Shown here in pieces: positions 11,716-32,576 of a stretch of DNA of 64,000 nt; position 1 is the stretch's first letter; each line of letters begins with the position of its first letter. This stretch comes from Mesostigma viride (taxonomy: Eukaryota > Streptophyta > Mesostigmatophyceae > Mesostigmatales > Mesostigmataceae). The stretch lies in NCBI GenBank assembly GCA_009746045.1, contig RPFO01000384.1, positions 58,501 to 122,500 on the forward strand. The letters run 5' to 3'. Under the pieces are notes generated by a model that worked only from the letters and a program-made list of their open reading frames with translations, was not told the DNA's origin and ran no database searches. The position numbers and the translations under genes are program-made.

Positions 11716-11893
11716 GCATGATGGGGCAATTGATTATAATATAGGTTGTCTCCTTGATAATTAATTAACTAATTATACTCGTGTTAATTAATTAACTAAA
11801 CTCGTGCTCGTCTTGTGGAGTCTCAGAGCATTAACACCGATGGATGGACTAATTAATTAATTGATTAGACTCGTGCTCCCGTTGGGGAGTCGT
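11716..11893. repeat. AT-rich (TTAA)n tails and family III hairpin
   Basis: Several (TTAA)n runs lie beside variants of ACTCGTGCTCCCGTTGGGGA, which is the reverse complement of the family III 3'-terminal hairpin. The same hairpin-plus-tail recurs at 22885-22935 and 42748-42825. These look like piled-up retroposon 3' ends. Confidence 0.6.
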
Positions 11894-12592
11894 TGGATGG
11901 ATGCATGGATGGATGGATGGATGGATGGATGGATGGATGGATGGATGGATGGATGGATGGATGGATGGATGGATGGATGGATGGATGGATGGATGGATGG
12001 ATGGATGGATGGATGGATGGATGGATGGATGGATGGATGGATGGATGGATGGATGGATGGATGGATGGATGGATGGATGGATGGATGGATGGATGGATGG
12101 ATGGATGGATGGATGGATGGATGGATGGATGGATGGATGGATGGATGGATGGATGGATGGATGGATGGATGGATGGATGGATGGATGGATGGATGGATGG
12201 ATGGATGGATGGATGGATGGATGGATGGATGGATGGATGGATGGATGGATGGATGGATGGATGGATGGATGGATGGATGGATGGATGGATGGATGGATGG
12301 ATGGATGGATGGATGGATGGATGGATGGATGGATGGATGGATGGATGGATGGATGGATGGATGGATGGATGGATGGATGGATGGATGGATGGATGGATGG
12401 ATGGATGGATGGATGGATGGATGGATGGATGGATGGATGGATGGATGGATGGATGGATGGATGGATGGATGGATGGATGGATGGATGGATGGATGGATGG
12501 ATGGATGGATGGATGGATGGATGGATGGATGGATGGATGGATGGATGGATGGATGGATGGATGGATGGATGGATGGATGGATGGATGGATGG
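11894..12592 (+). repeat. GGAT tetranucleotide array 1 (~0.7 kb)
   Basis: About 172 nearly perfect GGAT units with one early GCAT variant. It reads as DGWM on the plus strand and SIHP on the minus strand in every frame that stays open, so the long ORFs across it are artefacts. It sits between a family III hairpin and a family I 3' UTR. Confidence 0.97.
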
Positions 12593-12992
12593 GGCATCTA
12601 TGGGTTTGTAATACAATCAGGGCTACAACCTGCAGGTGGAGGATGTACAACTATCACCTGCTCTGGGTGCACAAGGTGCACCTGCACCCGGCCATGATGG
12701 TTCGAATGCCTAGCTCCTTAACAAGCACAGGCACCCAGGGGGGGCTTGAGGAGAGGGCCTAGAAGGCCTGCATGACATATATGGTATGTGGCTGGGCTAT
12801 AGCTGGTAGTACACATGGCATCTCAGCAGAGAGTAACTCCCTGCATAGGCATCGCATGGCTAAATTCTTAATGCATCATCCATGGGAGGTCCCATTGTGG
12901 GCTGGGCGCGGCTAAATACTGAAAGCATCATCCATCCATGGGGGCCATTATGGGCGCACATGCGCGTGGGCCACTTGCAAAGGCTAAGCCTA
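12593..12992 (-). mobile_element. Family I retroposon 3' UTR fragment
   Basis: Nearly identical to 43022-43420, which is the 3' UTR of the minus-strand ORF1-only copy 2. It begins in GGGGCATCTATGGGTTTG exactly where GGAT array 1 stops, and ends in AGGCTAAGCCTA where array 2 begins. Confidence 0.8.
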
Positions 12993-13652
12993 ATGGATGG
13001 ATGGATGGATGGATGGATGGAATGGATGGAAAAATATGGATGGATGGATGGATGGATGGATGGATGGATGGATGGATGGATGGATGGATGGATGGATGGA
13101 TGGATGGATGGATGGATGGATGGATGGATGGATGGATGGATGGATGGATGGATGGATGGATGGATGGATGGATGGATGGATGGATGGATGGATGGATGGA
13201 TGGATGGATGGATGGATGGATGGATGGATGGATGGATGGATGGATGGATGGATGGATGGATGGATGGATGGATGGATGGATGGATGGATGGATGGATGGA
13301 TGGATGGATGGATGGATGGATGGATGGATGGATGGATGGATGGATGGATGGATGGATGGATGGATGGATGGATGGATGGATGGATGGATGGATGGATGGA
13401 TGGATGGATGGATGGATGGATGGATGGATGGATGGATGGATGGATGGATGGATGGATGGATGGATGGATGGATGGATGGATGGATGGATGGATGGATGGA
13501 TGGATGGATGGATGGATGGATGGATGGATGGATGGATGGATGGATGGATGGATGGATGGATGGATGGATGGATGGATGGATGGATGGATGGATGGATGGA
13601 TGGATGGATGGATGGATGGATGGATGGATGGATGGATGGATGGATGGATGGG
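12993..13652 (+). repeat. GGAT tetranucleotide array 2 (~0.66 kb)
   Basis: About 160 GGAT units, pure apart from a short interruption (GGAATGGATGGAAAAATATG) near the left end. It begins within the sequence of the retroposon 3' UTR. Confidence 0.97.
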
Positions 13653-13691
13653 TACACGCAATCCTACCGGTCTAAGCTATCTACAAAAAAA

Positions 13692-14019
13692 GGGGGATGG
13701 TGGGGAAAGGGAAATGGTGGGGTGGTGCCTTCCGCAGTTCGCACGCCTGCCTGTGAGCCCTCATACAGCCGGCGAATGGCAGCAATATAAATGATGGGGG
13801 CATGCGATCCAAAGCTAGGATGGCCCAAAGAGCCTCCCAGGGGACCGTGTCAAAAGCCTTGATATAGTCAACAAAAATGAAGACCACCGGAAAACCATCA
13901 GGGCAAATGCGACGCATCACGCACCTCCTCCATCAGCCGGTGCGCGACAAATACATGCAGCCATGACAGTGGTACGGCCACGACGGAAACCCATCTGAGA
14001 CTCACCCCGGTGTGGGTCC
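13692..14019 (-). pseudogene. LINE ORF2 (RT) remnant, part left of the copia insertion
   Basis: Matches minus-strand 45985-46285 of the better preserved LINE, encoding the RT segment around VFIFVDYIKAFDTVPWEALWAI. It carries several small insertions (for example in GACGCATCACGCACCTCC) that break the frame. The copia-like element interrupts it at 14020, and it resumes at 22039. Confidence 0.8.
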
Positions 14020-26939: not shown

Positions 26940-28371
26940 CTAATACCCGTCTTCGCTGTCCTCCCGGTCGGCCTGCGCGTTGTATGCCTCGGTCGATTTA
27001 ATCCACAGCCACGCGCTGAGGGGGAAGCCGGTGAACACAAACCAGCCCAGCAGCAGCGGGTAGAGGGGGCTGTCGGGCCCCAGCACGCCAAACACAGGGT
27101 TCTTGTACAGGTACTCAAAGACCGAGCCGACCTGTGGGGGGGGGGCGGGGAATGGCATGGGGTATAATTAACGGCACTAGCAAGACTTTTGTGTTAGCAA
27201 TATAGCAGACGGTAACATGGGGCTCTTGTACAGGTACTCTAACACACAGCCGAACGGGGGAAAAAGGGGGCGATGGGCAAGGCAGCGTGAGCGATGACAG
27301 CAAGGGACTGTCGTCTTAGAATTTCATGAAGTAGGTTTAACATAGGGTCATTATTTCTGGAGTGGCGGATGCCATAAAGACCTGGCAAGTTTCGCATCAG
27401 CAGAAGTAGCAAAGCTCTAGAGCATATTGTAGGGGGGTATTGTTGTAGGGAGCAAGTTGCCAAAAATAACACAGGGTGACACAACATCTAGGCTTCAAAG
27501 GTCACAGATTGTTCCACTGCATGGCCCTGACCCTGACTTGACGAGGAGGACCGTAACTAAAGGTTGGGGTCTGACAAGTACTGACCAGAGGAGACCACAC
27601 GCCACGTGCCGCGGTGCTTGCTGAGGGCCTACTGGTAGCAATGTCCATGGTAGGAGCAAGCCCGAGCCTGGTCTACGCCAAAGTGGTCAAGGTGGTCTGC
27701 GACGAGGATACCGTGGCGAGTAGCGCTTGGCTACGGGGCGCAGGGTGGTTGCCGTGCATTGCCAAGCATAGCATGGATGAAGCAGGCTGTTAAGAATAAC
27801 CGACACTGCTTTCGGAGACAGGGCCTAAAAGACATACTTGCCAGCCACAGCACGGCTGCAGCCCTGGCGACACGAAAGAATGACAGCAATGCGGTACAGA
27901 ATCTACGCCGCGAACTGTATGAGTAAGAAGTTCACGTAGTATGTCGGTAGACAAATGGAAATCCTATCATGTCTCGTCCAGTTGGGCATCCAACAGCTGA
28001 TTGCATACCGCGGCAATGGCGACGACTCCGGAGGCCAGGAGGTAGACGTAGAAGGGAACGCCACTGGAGGAAGGATTAGCGCCCGTTGCTCCGCCCTCGC
28101 TCTTTATCCATGGCATGGCTTTGAGGTCGGGCACGTATTCGTCCTTCGTGGGGGTCTTCTCCCCCTTTCCCCCTTCCTCTGCCCGGACTGAAAACAAAGG
28201 GCGCGAGCTGCATAGCCTCGAGGAAAACAGCTGGCCACTTCCCGGTACTAGCAATGCGGTTCCTTGGAAACTGGCATTTGGCTTTAATACCGAGCGGTTT
28301 ACCTTCCCAAGCGGGATGGCCGCGATTGCTGGAACAAACGCCGGCGTGACGCGAGCGACTTGAGTTGCCAT
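26940..28371 (-). CDS. Small putative chloroplast membrane protein
   Basis: Exon 1 is 28371-28009 and exon 2 is 27131-26940, joined phase 0 (GT-AG), giving 184 residues. Residues 1 to about 62 are Ala/Ser/Arg-rich with few acids, a chloroplast-transit-like leader; ..SVRAEEGG looks like the processing zone. Two hydrophobic segments follow: FYVYLLASGVVAIAA, at the exon junction, and PLYPLLLGWFVFTGFPLSAWLW. Between them is SVFEYLYKNPVFGVLGPDSP, a motif I associate with small conserved plastid proteins but cannot name. The end is acidic (DREDSEDGY). A thylakoid or envelope location is inferred. It is transcribed away from the phosphoglycerate mutase gene, with 570 bp between the two ATGs. Confidence 0.75.
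27185..27255 (-). repeat. Partial exon duplication inside the intron
   Basis: TCTTGTACAGGTACTC, found in exon 2 at about 27100, recurs at about 27223 in similar surroundings (GGG before, ACACAGCCGA after, a G run beyond). It looks like a decayed duplicate of the 5' end of exon 2; the copy is frame-disrupted and probably not used. Confidence 0.55.
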
Positions 28372-28941
28372 ATATGCAAGACTATTTTATGCCCAAATAT
28401 GTATCCACGGCGCTCACTACCGGGACAGCATAAGGCTATCGCAATTAATATTTCCGCAGGCACAAATGCTCGCGTACAGTGCTAAGTACGCACAAACGCA
28501 CCAACTGCGTTCTGCTCTCACATACGCACACGTAAACCCAAGGTTGATTTTCCCTGGGGTAACTTGTAACCCAAGTCACATGATCCCCGCACGGATTTCC
28601 CCCGCAACACACTGCCACGCGGCTCGCGCGCGTTCGTTGTCATCCCACACGCGCCGCGCGGCGCGCAGTCCACTCGTTGCCGTTTAGTTACGTGGCGGCC
28701 AGCAAAGTGCTCGATCTCGACGGCAAGCAAGATGCAGATGCGGCGCGGCGCGTGCATGGTTGGCAGGTCCCCGCGACGTGCATGCGTGATTACGTCAGTA
28801 GGCGACCAGGTGGCGACGGGCGATTTCTCGACGGTTGGGCATGAGGGGCTTATGACCTCGACCAGTCTGCTCGCTCGCGGTCTTCGTCACTTAGCCGGGC
28901 ATCCACTCGGCGTGGCACGCTGCGCTCGCCGTAATTGCACA
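28372..28941. promoter_or_regulatory. Shared intergenic region of two divergent genes
   Basis: 570 bp between the ATG of the small membrane protein (28371, minus) and the ATG chosen for phosphoglycerate mutase (28942, plus). Upstream in-frame ATGs at 28732 and 28852 would shorten it. It presumably holds both promoters; I see no unmistakable TATA box. Confidence 0.45.
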
Positions 28942-31900
28942 ATGGCAGAAAGCATTGAGTCCGTCGCCCAGCGCCTGCGTGATATTTGGGGTCTCGGGGA
29001 GGGGCCGCAGGTCGAGGATGCACTGTACAAATACGCGACGTGTCCGGCGGAGGGGGCGCCTGTCTTCAAGATGAACTCGTGGAAGGACGTAGTGAGCGCC
29101 TTCCATGGCGTCAAGGTCGATGACCAGTTCGTACCCCCGGCCGTGCGCGTTGACGAGAAGGGCGTTCCAGTAGGGACCGTTAAGTCGGGAGATAGCATTA
29201 TTTATTTCGATTTCCGTACCGACCGTGCCAAGCCTCTCACGGCGGCATTCCTTGACGTGCCATTCGGTGGCCAGGTCGGCGGGCTCAGCGATGAGGCCAA
29301 GGCAAAGAGGCCAACGGACATTAGCTTCGTCACCATGACGCACTACGATGGCAACTTCTTGAAGTCTCCCCAGCTGAAGGAGGCCTTCAACCCGGCCGAG
29401 CCCCTCAAGGACACGTATGCGGAGGTTGCAGGAAAGGCCGGCATTAAGCAGGTAAAAAAAAGTCGACTATTCTGTCATGAAACAAGCCTCATAATTTCCC
29501 GCGCAGAACAGCCTGCCAGGTATATGTGACCTTAGGGAGGTTGGATACTCTGCCGGCGAGGTGCAGTCATAGCCCAGTCCGTATGGTCACTGTATGAGGA
29601 AGCATGGCACGAACTAGTTAGCGTGTGCTGTCTGCGGGCAGCATTGCTTCCTGCCCTCCTGCCCTTCCGCCCTTCCCCCCCCTGCCCTTGTGCCCCCCTG
29701 CTCTCCTGCCTTCCTGTCCTTGTGTCCTTGTGCCCCCCTTGTTTTCTTTTGTGCCTGTTATCTTGTATGCACACCTCGCGTGCACCAGCATGGCAGCGCT
29801 GGACGCACGCCTGGCCTGCGCACTCCTGGACACTTTGTACCATACTATCTCTGTACTATCAGCATACTATTGCAGCAGCAGCAGCAGCAGGAGGATAGCA
29901 TGGCAGAAGCATGTCACCACAGAAGCACCATCCCAGCGTATCACTTCTGCACATCATCATCACCACAGCATCCAGTTCTCATTCTCAAGTTGTCACAGCG
30001 CACGCGTGCGCTCTGTTCTACAAACCCTGCCCCGCCCGGCCCGGCCCGGCCCGGCCCGGCCCGGCCCGGCCCGGCCCTGCCCTGCTGTGCCGCGCGTGCT
30101 GCATGAGCCACCTTCCCTTCCCCAGTGCCCACCTTGTGTCTCACGGGCGAAAGGCTCCTCCGCTCTGTGCCCTTCGCCAGTGGCGCAATCGCCCTGGCCC
30201 ATCCTGGCCCCATTTCTGTCCCATTTTTTGACCGGCCACGACCCTTTTAGGGTGGCGCTCCCACTCCCCTGCCACATGTTACACCCTCGCGCTCTGGTGC
30301 CCACTTCAAACCTCGAACCCCGAATCATACAACGTAGGCCCCCCAATGCAAAGCTTTGCACAGCGAACCGCTGCTGGCAGCAGTCGCGTCGGTGCCCCTT
30401 GGTCGTGTCTACCTCCACCCACCCCGCTTGGTTGTGTGTACCCACACCCACCCACCCTGTAAACCCACAACTCTCTGGTGCCTTGTTGTGGCACCTTGCC
30501 GCACACTGGCATCGCACTCTGACCTTGGCCCCTTGTTCTGCCCCCCGTAACCCTGTCTCGCTCCCCCAGTGCCCATGTCCCCCCCCTCCCCCTCCCTGCT
30601 CTCTCCTCTCCTCCACATGGCTCGCCCATTCCCCGGTCCCTCCCCCCCCCTTGTTTCTCATCTCTTTGTTTCATCTCTCTCTACATATAAACTAAGCCAT
30701 GACTGGTGCCACGTGAGGGTGCGTCTGCCTCTTTTCTCATCGCCCTTCCATTTTCCCTTTCCTTCCGTGTCCCTCTGCGCCTTCCCTCGCCCCGCATCTC
30801 CCACATACTGTGCTTGGGTGGGGGCTGTACACAATTTGTTTTGAAAAAACTATTTACTTGAACTTTTACTTTATTCCCTGCAGTTACCCCTATGCTGGCC
30901 CGCGGTGCTCATTCCTTGTCCGCTTCGCCCCCTCGTCCGCTCTCATGTCCCATAGCCCCCCTCTCTCGTCCCGATGAGGGTTTCGTAGTCTGACAGACCC
31001 TCGTCCCCCCTTACGACCTGCGTTGCTTTCTGCCTTGCCCCTAATGCTGCTCTTCCCATGGCCTGTCTCCCCTGGCTTGCATTGCTTTGGTCCGTTTCCC
31101 TGCCTCTTGCATTGCCTCTGAAGCTTACCCTTGCCCTGCCTCTTTGCCTTGCACTGGCTCCTCCTTGGTCTGTGGTCTTGTTTGGTTAAACTCGTTTTTT
31201 CTCTATCGCCTTGCCTTGGGCATGCTTGTGCCCCTCTCATTTCTGGCTGTGTGTGCCAGCTGGTGGTGGGTGAGTCGGAGAAGTGGCGCGCCGTGACCTG
31301 GTTCAAGGACGGCCGCCGCAACCTGGGCTACACGCAGCAGACCGACGACGAGGCGATGCGCGTGGACACGCACCCGACACTGCCGATCACCGTCAAGGTG
31401 GTCAAGTCCCGCAAGGTGGCCGCGCACATCCAGGCGCCGCAGATGCGCGCGCAGGAGATCACCGAGGTGCTCCGCGAGGGCGTCCGCGAGGGCGTCCCCG
31501 ACATCTTCGTCAACTATGCCAACGCAGACATGGTCGGCCACGCGATGACGGATGCCGCGTGGTTCGATGGCGTCGTAGAGGCGATCCTGGAGCTGGACCG
31601 GTGCCTGGGCACGCTGGTCCCGGAGGCGCTCGCGGCGGGCTACGTGGTCATGATCACGGGCGATCACGGCAACGCGGAGCAGATGCTCCACGAGAACGGG
31701 AAGGCTAACCCCGCGCACACGACCAACAAGGTGCCCTACATCATCCTGGGCCTGGGCGACCGCAAGTGCAGCATCAAGCCGGAGGGCCTCACGATCGGGT
31801 GCATGGCCCCGACCTCGCTACACCTGCTGGGGATTGCCCCGCCTGCGTCGTGGGACCGCGAGAGCGCGCTGGAGGGCGACGTCAAGCCCAGCAAGGACGC

Positions 31901-32576
31901 CAAGGTTTTCAAGATCATCCTGGACGGATACGGCCTGCGGGACGAGGAGTACGGCAACGCTATGTTCGCGGCCGCCCAGAAGAAGGGGTCCCCTCTGCAC
32001 ATGGACCGGTGGATGAAGGGCGAGGATGGGGCGCTGGCCGCGCCGGCTGAGGCGTCCGGCGAGCCGTGCGGGTACCCTGCGGGCGAGGCTGGGACGACTG
32101 AGTTTGGCCACGTCATCTTTGACGCCGGACGGATGGTTCGGTCGGACGTCACGCTGATCGACCACGCGCTCGCGGTGGGCATCTTTGACAAGAACCAGGC
32201 GTTTGCGGACGCGTTTGCGGCGGTCAAGGCCAAGGACGGGGCCACGCTGCACGTGATGGGCATCCTGTCGGACGGCATGGTGCACTCGTCGCTCAAGCAT
32301 CTGGAGGGGATCCTTCGGCTCGCGGCCGCGAGTGGCCTGCCCAAGGAGAAGCTCTCCCTGCACCCGATCCTGGACGGGCGCGACGTGCCGGGAGACAGCT
32401 CGCCCAAGTTCCTGGCATGGCTCGAGGAGGTGATCGCAAAGTACAGCGTGGGGCAGATCAACTCGGTGTGGGGCCGCGGGTGGGGCAAGGACCGTGACAA
32501 CCGTTGGAAGCGCATCGAGGCGGCATTCCTGTCGCTCGTCACCGGCAATGGCGCAGTCCACGTGCAGCTGCCCTAG
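28942..32576 (+). CDS. iPGM: 2,3-bisphosphoglycerate-independent phosphoglycerate mutase, circularly permuted
   Basis: Interconverts 3- and 2-phosphoglycerate in glycolysis. Exons are 28942-29451 and 31260-32576 (phase 0, GT-AG; intron 1808 bp): 608 residues. The order of parts is rotated. Residues 1-170 equal the middle of the usual protein (DQFVPP at 61-66, DFRTDR at 90-95). Residues 171-370 equal the usual C-terminus: metal ligands D260/H264 in NADMVGH, D305/H306 in GDHGNAE, H323 in PAHTTN, then the normal ending LHLLGI. A ~10-residue linker leads to the usual N-terminus: D392 in ILDGYG, GTTEFGH with T450 where Ser is the phospho-acceptor, SDGMVHS, GRD (554-555) and DRDNRW. The protein stops just after. 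The native C-to-N join lies within exon 2. Starts at 28732 and 28852 are in frame and would add a basic, targeting-like leader. Confidence 0.93.
29452..31259 (+). other. Intron of the phosphoglycerate mutase gene
   Basis: Starts GTAAAA and ends TGTGTGCCAG. It is pyrimidine-rich on the sense strand, with a (GGCCC)n run at about 30030-30075, a short AGC run at about 29873-29892, and long CCT/CCC tracts. Open frames inside (for example 29625-30695) are compositional artefacts. Confidence 0.85.

Follow-up and report, generated by a model that had tools for sequence, protein, structure and literature searches.

A stretch of 64,000 nucleotides from the genome of the streptophyte alga Mesostigma viride (GenBank assembly GCA_009746045.1, contig RPFO01000384.1, positions 58,501 to 122,500 of the forward strand; hereafter the window) was found to encode, on the plus strand between positions 28942 and 32576, a cofactor-independent phosphoglycerate mutase (iPGM) whose segments stand in rotated order. 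We consider it quite probable that this circularly permuted iPGM has the ordinary iPGM fold and interconverts 3- and 2-phosphoglycerate; with moderate confidence we also propose that the permuted form arose in Omnitrophota and was passed to algae. Splicing of the two exons (28942-29451 and 31260-32576) gave one open frame of 608 residues, laid out as an extra piece of 44 residues, the usual C-terminal half, a linker of about 10 residues and the usual N-terminal half.

The rotated order, already recognized in a preliminary description made from the DNA letters, was confirmed by comparison with solved structures and with protein family profiles. In phmmer searches residues 55-368 of the product matched residues 226-503 of 1EJJ (independent E-value, i-E, 6.1e-39), and residues 386-603 matched residues 6-212 of the same structure (i-E 3.1e-43); these E-values rule out a chance match. 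The Pfam iPGM_N profile was split in two, positions 132-216 falling on residues 43-136 (within exon 1) and positions 1-130 on residues 470-602. Both PF01676 (metalloenzyme domain, 99.9 bits) and PF06415 (iPGM_N, 170.2 bits) scored over their cut-offs, with two stretches each. All motifs named in the preliminary description were found in the product; the stop, which it had placed directly after DRDNRW (residues 581-586), follows 22 residues later. The join between the native C-terminus and the native N-terminus (about residues 375-385, positions 31872-31904, plus strand) lies inside exon 2, in agreement with the description, and is followed by the complete canonical N-terminal half (residues 386-608, positions 31905-32573).

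When the permuted chain was placed in a profile alignment with 174 canonical proteins, it broke off at column 33 within a segment of 62 columns, and homology restarted at column 37 (residue 45), with no overlap or duplicated remnant found between the two chain ends. DRDNRW is followed by a helix, and the cut site is the loop behind it, in the transferase domain; the iPGM_N profile is itself cut there, and the new ends lie in the domain to which they had first been assigned. The whole chain is present once, rotated, with both new ends at one place, which is the arrangement of a circular permutation. A trimmed tandem copy would be expected to leave a duplicated remnant at the two ends; none was detected, the cut being clean in one loop, and the history initially suggested (tandem duplication, fusion and trimming) is to be amended in this respect. 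Residues 1-44 (positions 28942-29073), which have no canonical counterpart, are common to the close permuted relatives: they were found in 10 of the 12 rows of our alignment A1 (partial in P0005, missing in P0011), and the two close Omnitrophota domains described below have them as well. In a structure model of the relative from the red alga Porphyridium, residues 1-50 form two helices and one strand, with a predicted local distance difference test (pLDDT) of 81-93 for the block.

For the active site we used a set of 15 residues of 1EJJ, which we take to be the catalytic ones (D12, Ser62, H123, R153, D154, R185, R191, R261, R264, K336, D403, H407, D444, H445 and H462). Fourteen of these are identical in the Mesostigma protein (D392, H512, R544, D545, R576, R582, R92, R95, K178, D260, H264, D305, H306 and H323), and only the Ser62 nucleophile differs, its site being occupied by Thr450 (32097-32099; GTTEFGH versus GNSEVGH). 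According to the alignment, the metal ligand Asp392 (31923-31925) corresponds to Asp12, Asp260 and His264 (31527-31541) to Asp403 and His407, Asp305 and His306 (31662-31667) to Asp444 and His445, and His323 (31716-31718) to His462. Thr at the nucleophile site, with the other 14 positions kept, was seen in all 14 algal-type rows (Mesostigma, P0004-P0014 and the Omnitrophota domains L001 and L002). In the 13 aligned permuted rows from more distant Omnitrophota (L042-L047 left out) the site is Ser in eight and Thr in five; Lys replaces Arg191 in five of these rows, Ser replaces Asp154 in one, and one row is cut by the contig end. The equivalog cut-off of TIGR01307 (330.65 bits) was passed by the Mesostigma gene model P0003 (346.1), by P0008 and by P0004, with P0014 (320.8) below it; when the genome was searched with the same model, no single stretch reached the cut-off. 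Judged by its sequence, the Mesostigma protein is a variant iPGM and not a typical member, on account of the rotated order and the presumed Thr nucleophile.

Among the 225 protein matches listed (P0003-P0227), 14 had the rotated and 210 the canonical order, and one was a fragment. The 14 consist of the alga's own EukProt/JGI gene model (jgi/Mesvir1/19151, P0003, 565 amino acids, 100% identical to the gene product over 565 residues), 11 full or near-full relatives (56-64% identity) and two proteins (P0015 and P0016), located on long contigs, whose frames are apparently shifted internally. One of the relatives comes from the red alga Porphyridium purpureum (on a 2.4-Mb contig), and three (P0004, P0007 and P0009) carry transcript-assembly names in EukProt. 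A query with a distant permuted form brought 119 new proteins among the matches listed, of which 115 were canonical and four rotated, two of the four being named Candidatus Omnitrophota. On viral contigs no relative was found with two peptide patterns. The permutation, common to a red alga and to Omnitrophota bacteria, was probably not made in Mesostigma itself.

When 84,980 GTDB species were scanned with two peptide patterns, 53 stretches were obtained, two of which encode a relative, both in metagenome-assembled genomes (MAGs) of Candidatus Omnitrophota. These two domains (L001 in genome G002 and L002 in genome G001) are 61% identical to the Mesostigma protein over its residues 9-608. From the phylum to which G001 belongs, 384 genomes were searched with a profile of alignment A1, and 79 of them had a match. 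In 19 further genomes, chosen for a rotated-looking listing, the C-terminal half preceded the N-terminal half in one frame in 19 of 19 cases, the weakest being L046 (C-terminal pieces 8.1 and 32.3 bits, N-terminal piece 50.1 bits). Together with G001, at least 20 of the 79 genomes with a match have the permuted form; the order was inspected individually in these 20 and in six canonical cases. The six Omnitrophota with a canonical iPGM are G234, G164, G152, G172, G336 and G190 (L016, L017/L048, L018, L020, L022 and L025).

Several of the bacterial domains are parts of very long frames. In L002 the permuted iPGM forms a single domain within a frame that runs for at least 9434 codons and off the start of the contig; in L001 it lies in a frame of 2083 codons that runs off the contig end. 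In the former frame (L002 70-13617, G001:C2, with L026/L027) Pfam profiles detected two CsrA stretches, TIM twice, an enolase C-terminal domain, the permuted iPGM, an inositol-phosphatase domain and PGK, a content that makes it a candidate glycolytic polyprotein. Its enolase is the only one found in G001 (a MAG, which may be incomplete), and the enolase and TIM catalytic motifs look intact by eye; G002 has two enolases, in frames of 460 and 2578 codons. The permuted iPGM comes after enolase in the Omnitrophota frames, although in L001 the contig edge leaves only 35 residues, the final ones, of an enolase-like piece. An enoyl-CoA hydratase domain was also seen 3' of the permuted iPGM in the same frame (L001 11-6250). 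Besides the permuted gene, G001 and G002 have one weak partial TIGR01307 match each, in frames of 402 and 404 codons, which perhaps represent ApgM, the archaeal-type member of the iPGM superfamily that catalyses the same reaction.

Long context and permutation are separable, since canonical iPGMs too were found within frames of 2813 to 29111 codons (L016, L018, L020 and L048, in G234, G152, G172 and G164). Permuted iPGMs occur also in shorter frames of 693 to 904 codons (G225, G331, G317, G288 and G044). Further long frames with a permuted iPGM contain PPDK_N, AAA_18 and HEAT (G235) or HD_4, GNAT and TPR, with RelA/SpoT and ATP-grasp matches below the cut-offs (G335). A permuted iPGM-like domain (L047, G110:C2:170549-171754) was noticed in a frame listed at 70450 codons.

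The relationship between the algal and bacterial forms was analysed in two joint trees. In the first (57 rows, including 25 of the 45 sampled canonical rows, with the fragment L040 dropped and L042-L047 excluded) the algal-type proteins and L001/L002 grouped with 100/100 support; L001 and L002 were sisters (99/98), and the 12 other rows formed a group of their own (94/80). The second (44 rows) reproduced the split of L001/L002 from the 12 algal-type rows (86/80). With FastTree, L001/L002 fell outside the algal rows when both halves (0.927) or the C-terminal half (0.921) were used. The stem branch of the algal-type group is long (1.49 changes per column), and canonical Omnitrophota rows were placed between permuted groups. 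The canonical rows used are the ones closest to the algal query, and this biases the deeper branching of the trees.

The 440-Mb assembly that contains the window was also searched for other phosphoglycerate mutases, exon by exon and with only the best candidates scored, a procedure which a gene of many short exons could escape and which did find multi-exon loci resembling the cofactor-dependent enzyme (dPGM). No canonical iPGM half was found elsewhere: PF06415 gave two matches, and TIGR01307 and an Arabidopsis-type query, representing the plant-type iPGM that is the usual streptophyte form, gave three each (E up to 1), all belonging to the permuted gene. Nothing was found in favour of the misassembled duplication named at the outset as an observation that would overturn the reading. 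TIGR01258 (cofactor-dependent enzyme) gave 10 matches with E up to 1, none alone above the cut-off: three on C1735 (885312-888570), four on C1106 (449476-453908), one of them with an internal stop, one on C2011 and two weak ones on C1391. We also considered the permuted gene as the alga's sole phosphoglycerate mutase, an idea left unsupported by these dPGM-like exons; it is the sole iPGM found.

Taken as a mechanism, the protein would follow the two-metal phosphoenzyme route, with Thr450 taking the phosphate in place of Ser62; catalysis, metal use and expression of the Mesostigma protein are inferred here. The linker of about 10 residues would bridge the native ends, and a two-helix piece would have been added at the N-terminus. 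Because the chain is opened at a single loop of the transferase domain, both domains can still form. The permuted form would have been made in Omnitrophota as one domain of very long chains, where permutation calls for neither a new start nor a new stop codon, and a gene transfer would have brought it, as a free-standing gene, to eukaryotes, among them a green and a red alga. We infer the bacterial origin and the transfer with moderate confidence, because the deeper permuted forms are found in Omnitrophota and the joint trees do not nest L001/L002 within the algal-type group. A wider proposal, for which the chances seem to us slightly less than even, is that some giant open reading frames (ORFs) of Omnitrophota are metabolic polyproteins carrying lower glycolysis, inside which enzymes can be freely re-cut, and that the permuted iPGM was given from there to eukaryotes including green and red algae; in Mesostigma no iPGM other than the permuted one was found.

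Several observations weigh against the interpretation favoured here. As to the fold, the first (C-terminal) half matched iPGM structures, but each fold alignment spans one half at a time and not the whole permuted fold (low-scoring matches to arginase, GTPase and nucleoside phosphorylase folds were set aside). As to function, we know of no reported activity of a permuted member. Thr is rare at the nucleophile site of canonical proteins (5 Thr and 205 Ser among the 210 listed with a readable motif), and for this reason rate or reaction may differ, even if the same five proteins indicate that the Ser62 nucleophile is not strictly defining. The second NCBIfam iPGM model, NF003897, scored 264.6 with a cut-off of 862, which the canonical control P0017 (609.4) did not reach either. 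With dPGM-like exons in two or three places, the permuted enzyme need not carry glycolysis. As to the origin, the FastTree of the N-terminal half alone put L001/L002 next to P0004, inside the algal part of the tree, although support there was low (0.464), and one clade of all 26 permuted rows was rejected in the approximately unbiased test (p-AU 0.021).

The last result bears on the strongest alternative, that permuted iPGMs arose repeatedly at the same loop, re-cutting being eased by the very long chains of Omnitrophota. It is a real possibility that we lean away from: the rejection and the position of canonical Omnitrophota rows between permuted groups favour it, but one clade of the 18 permuted rows that remain without the long ones was not rejected (p-AU 0.265), and by profile coordinates the break region is about equal across the permuted forms. 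A eukaryotic origin, with the two Omnitrophota having received the gene from an alga, appears unlikely. With the two peptide patterns the close type was found in just two of the scanned GTDB species as against several eukaryotic sequences, and the weakly supported tree of the N-terminal half agrees with such a direction; on the other hand, a further 19 genomes of Omnitrophota carry other, deeper permuted iPGMs, the joint trees put L001/L002 outside the algal-type rows with moderate support, and a free gene would have required in-frame insertion into a long bacterial ORF.

More doubtful still is the view that the permuted protein is no longer a phosphoglycerate mutase and serves as a phosphatase, a mutase of another substrate or a sensor. 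Thr in place of Ser62 in all algal-type rows, the long stem branch and the dPGM-like exons of Mesostigma would suit such a change, but each of these 14 rows retains all the remaining metal and substrate positions checked (14 in number), three of four proteins passed the TIGR01307 equivalog cut-off, the domain comes after enolase in the Omnitrophota frames (with the reservation made above for L001) and Thr occurs also in five of the canonical proteins listed. An artefact of assembly or annotation, whether from misassembly of a tandem duplication or from exons wrongly joined, is a default suspicion with a single genome; no support for it was found, and it has a negligible chance. As the preliminary description had argued from the C-to-N join within one exon, exon shuffling would not produce the order. 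The order recurs in the 11 further relatives (the Porphyridium protein and three known under transcript-assembly names among them), in other collections and in bacterial frames free of interruption, and the exon-by-exon searches of the assembly brought up no canonical half outside this gene.

The Mesostigma gene consists of two exons. Exon 1 (28942-29451, plus strand; ATG in CACAATGGC) encodes residues 1-170, in which the extra N-terminal piece is followed by the first part of the canonical C-terminal half with DDQFVPP and FRTDR; the intron (29452-31259, 1808 bases) is of the GT...AG type; and exon 2 (31260-32576) encodes residues 171-608 and the stop, comprising the remaining C-terminal half, the linker and the N-terminal half. 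The JGI model P0003 begins 43 residues downstream of the start favoured by the relatives. An in-frame upstream ATG (28852-28941) would add 30 residues with five Arg and no acidic residue, a possible organelle presequence; the relatives start near 28942. The first Met of an ORF on the opposite strand (27967-28386) lies at 28371, which leaves 571 bases to the iPGM start; by eye this ORF resembles a plastid-targeted small protein and may have its promoter region in common with the iPGM gene. Elsewhere in the window, ORFs resembling starch synthase and retroelements by eye fit a nuclear contig, and long tandem repeats at 11849-12762 and 12860-13794 are open in several frames (WMDG and HPSI by eye), which is no evidence of coding.

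Compared with canonical iPGM (GpmI, TIGR01307; 1EJJ from Bacillus stearothermophilus), the Mesostigma protein shares both halves, 14 of the 15 presumed active-site residues and the modelled fold of the C-terminal half; it differs by the rotated halves, the linked native ends, the 44 extra N-terminal residues and Thr for the Ser nucleophile. The plant- and trypanosomatid-type iPGMs (3NVL, 3IGY) belong to the same superfamily, gave weaker matches and have the canonical order. In the open-access literature, preprints excluded, we found no description of a permuted iPGM, in accordance with the preliminary description, and the available portions of PMC2876114, PMC6957218, PMC5570346, PMC11046441, PMC8550323 and PMC9487903 do not treat one. 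Natural permutations are documented, as far as the accessible text goes, in the phosphohexomutase PGM3 (PMC5570346), a phosphomutase with catalytic residues in place but of unrelated fold and with about 60 residues moved inside one domain, and between bacterial and eukaryotic forms of glutathione synthetase (as cited in PMC2876114), a different enzyme and fold.

Seymour et al. (2023, PMC10066038, in the part available) report that giant ORFs, which are poorly understood, are common among Omnitrophota, in several classes of the phylum. Several permuted iPGMs lie in such very long frames of the same phylum; that article, in its available part, links giant ORFs with adhesion and poorly understood function, and the glycolytic domains are a feature seen here. 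The words 'phosphoglycerate', 'fusion' and 'fused' are absent from its main text, and no paper fitting giant ORFs with glycolytic enzymes or polyproteins was found by title. The eukaryotic TPI-GAPDH fusions (PMC3527533, as far as accessible) join two glycolytic enzymes per chain, whereas the bacterial frame found here holds TIM, enolase, permuted iPGM, TIM, an inositol-phosphatase-like domain and PGK.

If our interpretation is correct, a central glycolytic enzyme exists naturally in a rotated form not found in the open-access literature, and the transferase domain of iPGM can accommodate new chain ends. The protein would then offer a natural test of the effect of chain order on the domain movement of iPGM. 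The gene transfer would tie algae to a little-known bacterial phylum, and the permuted domains would provide a foothold on the Omnitrophota giant ORFs, which Seymour et al. (2023, PMC10066038), in the part available, call poorly understood.
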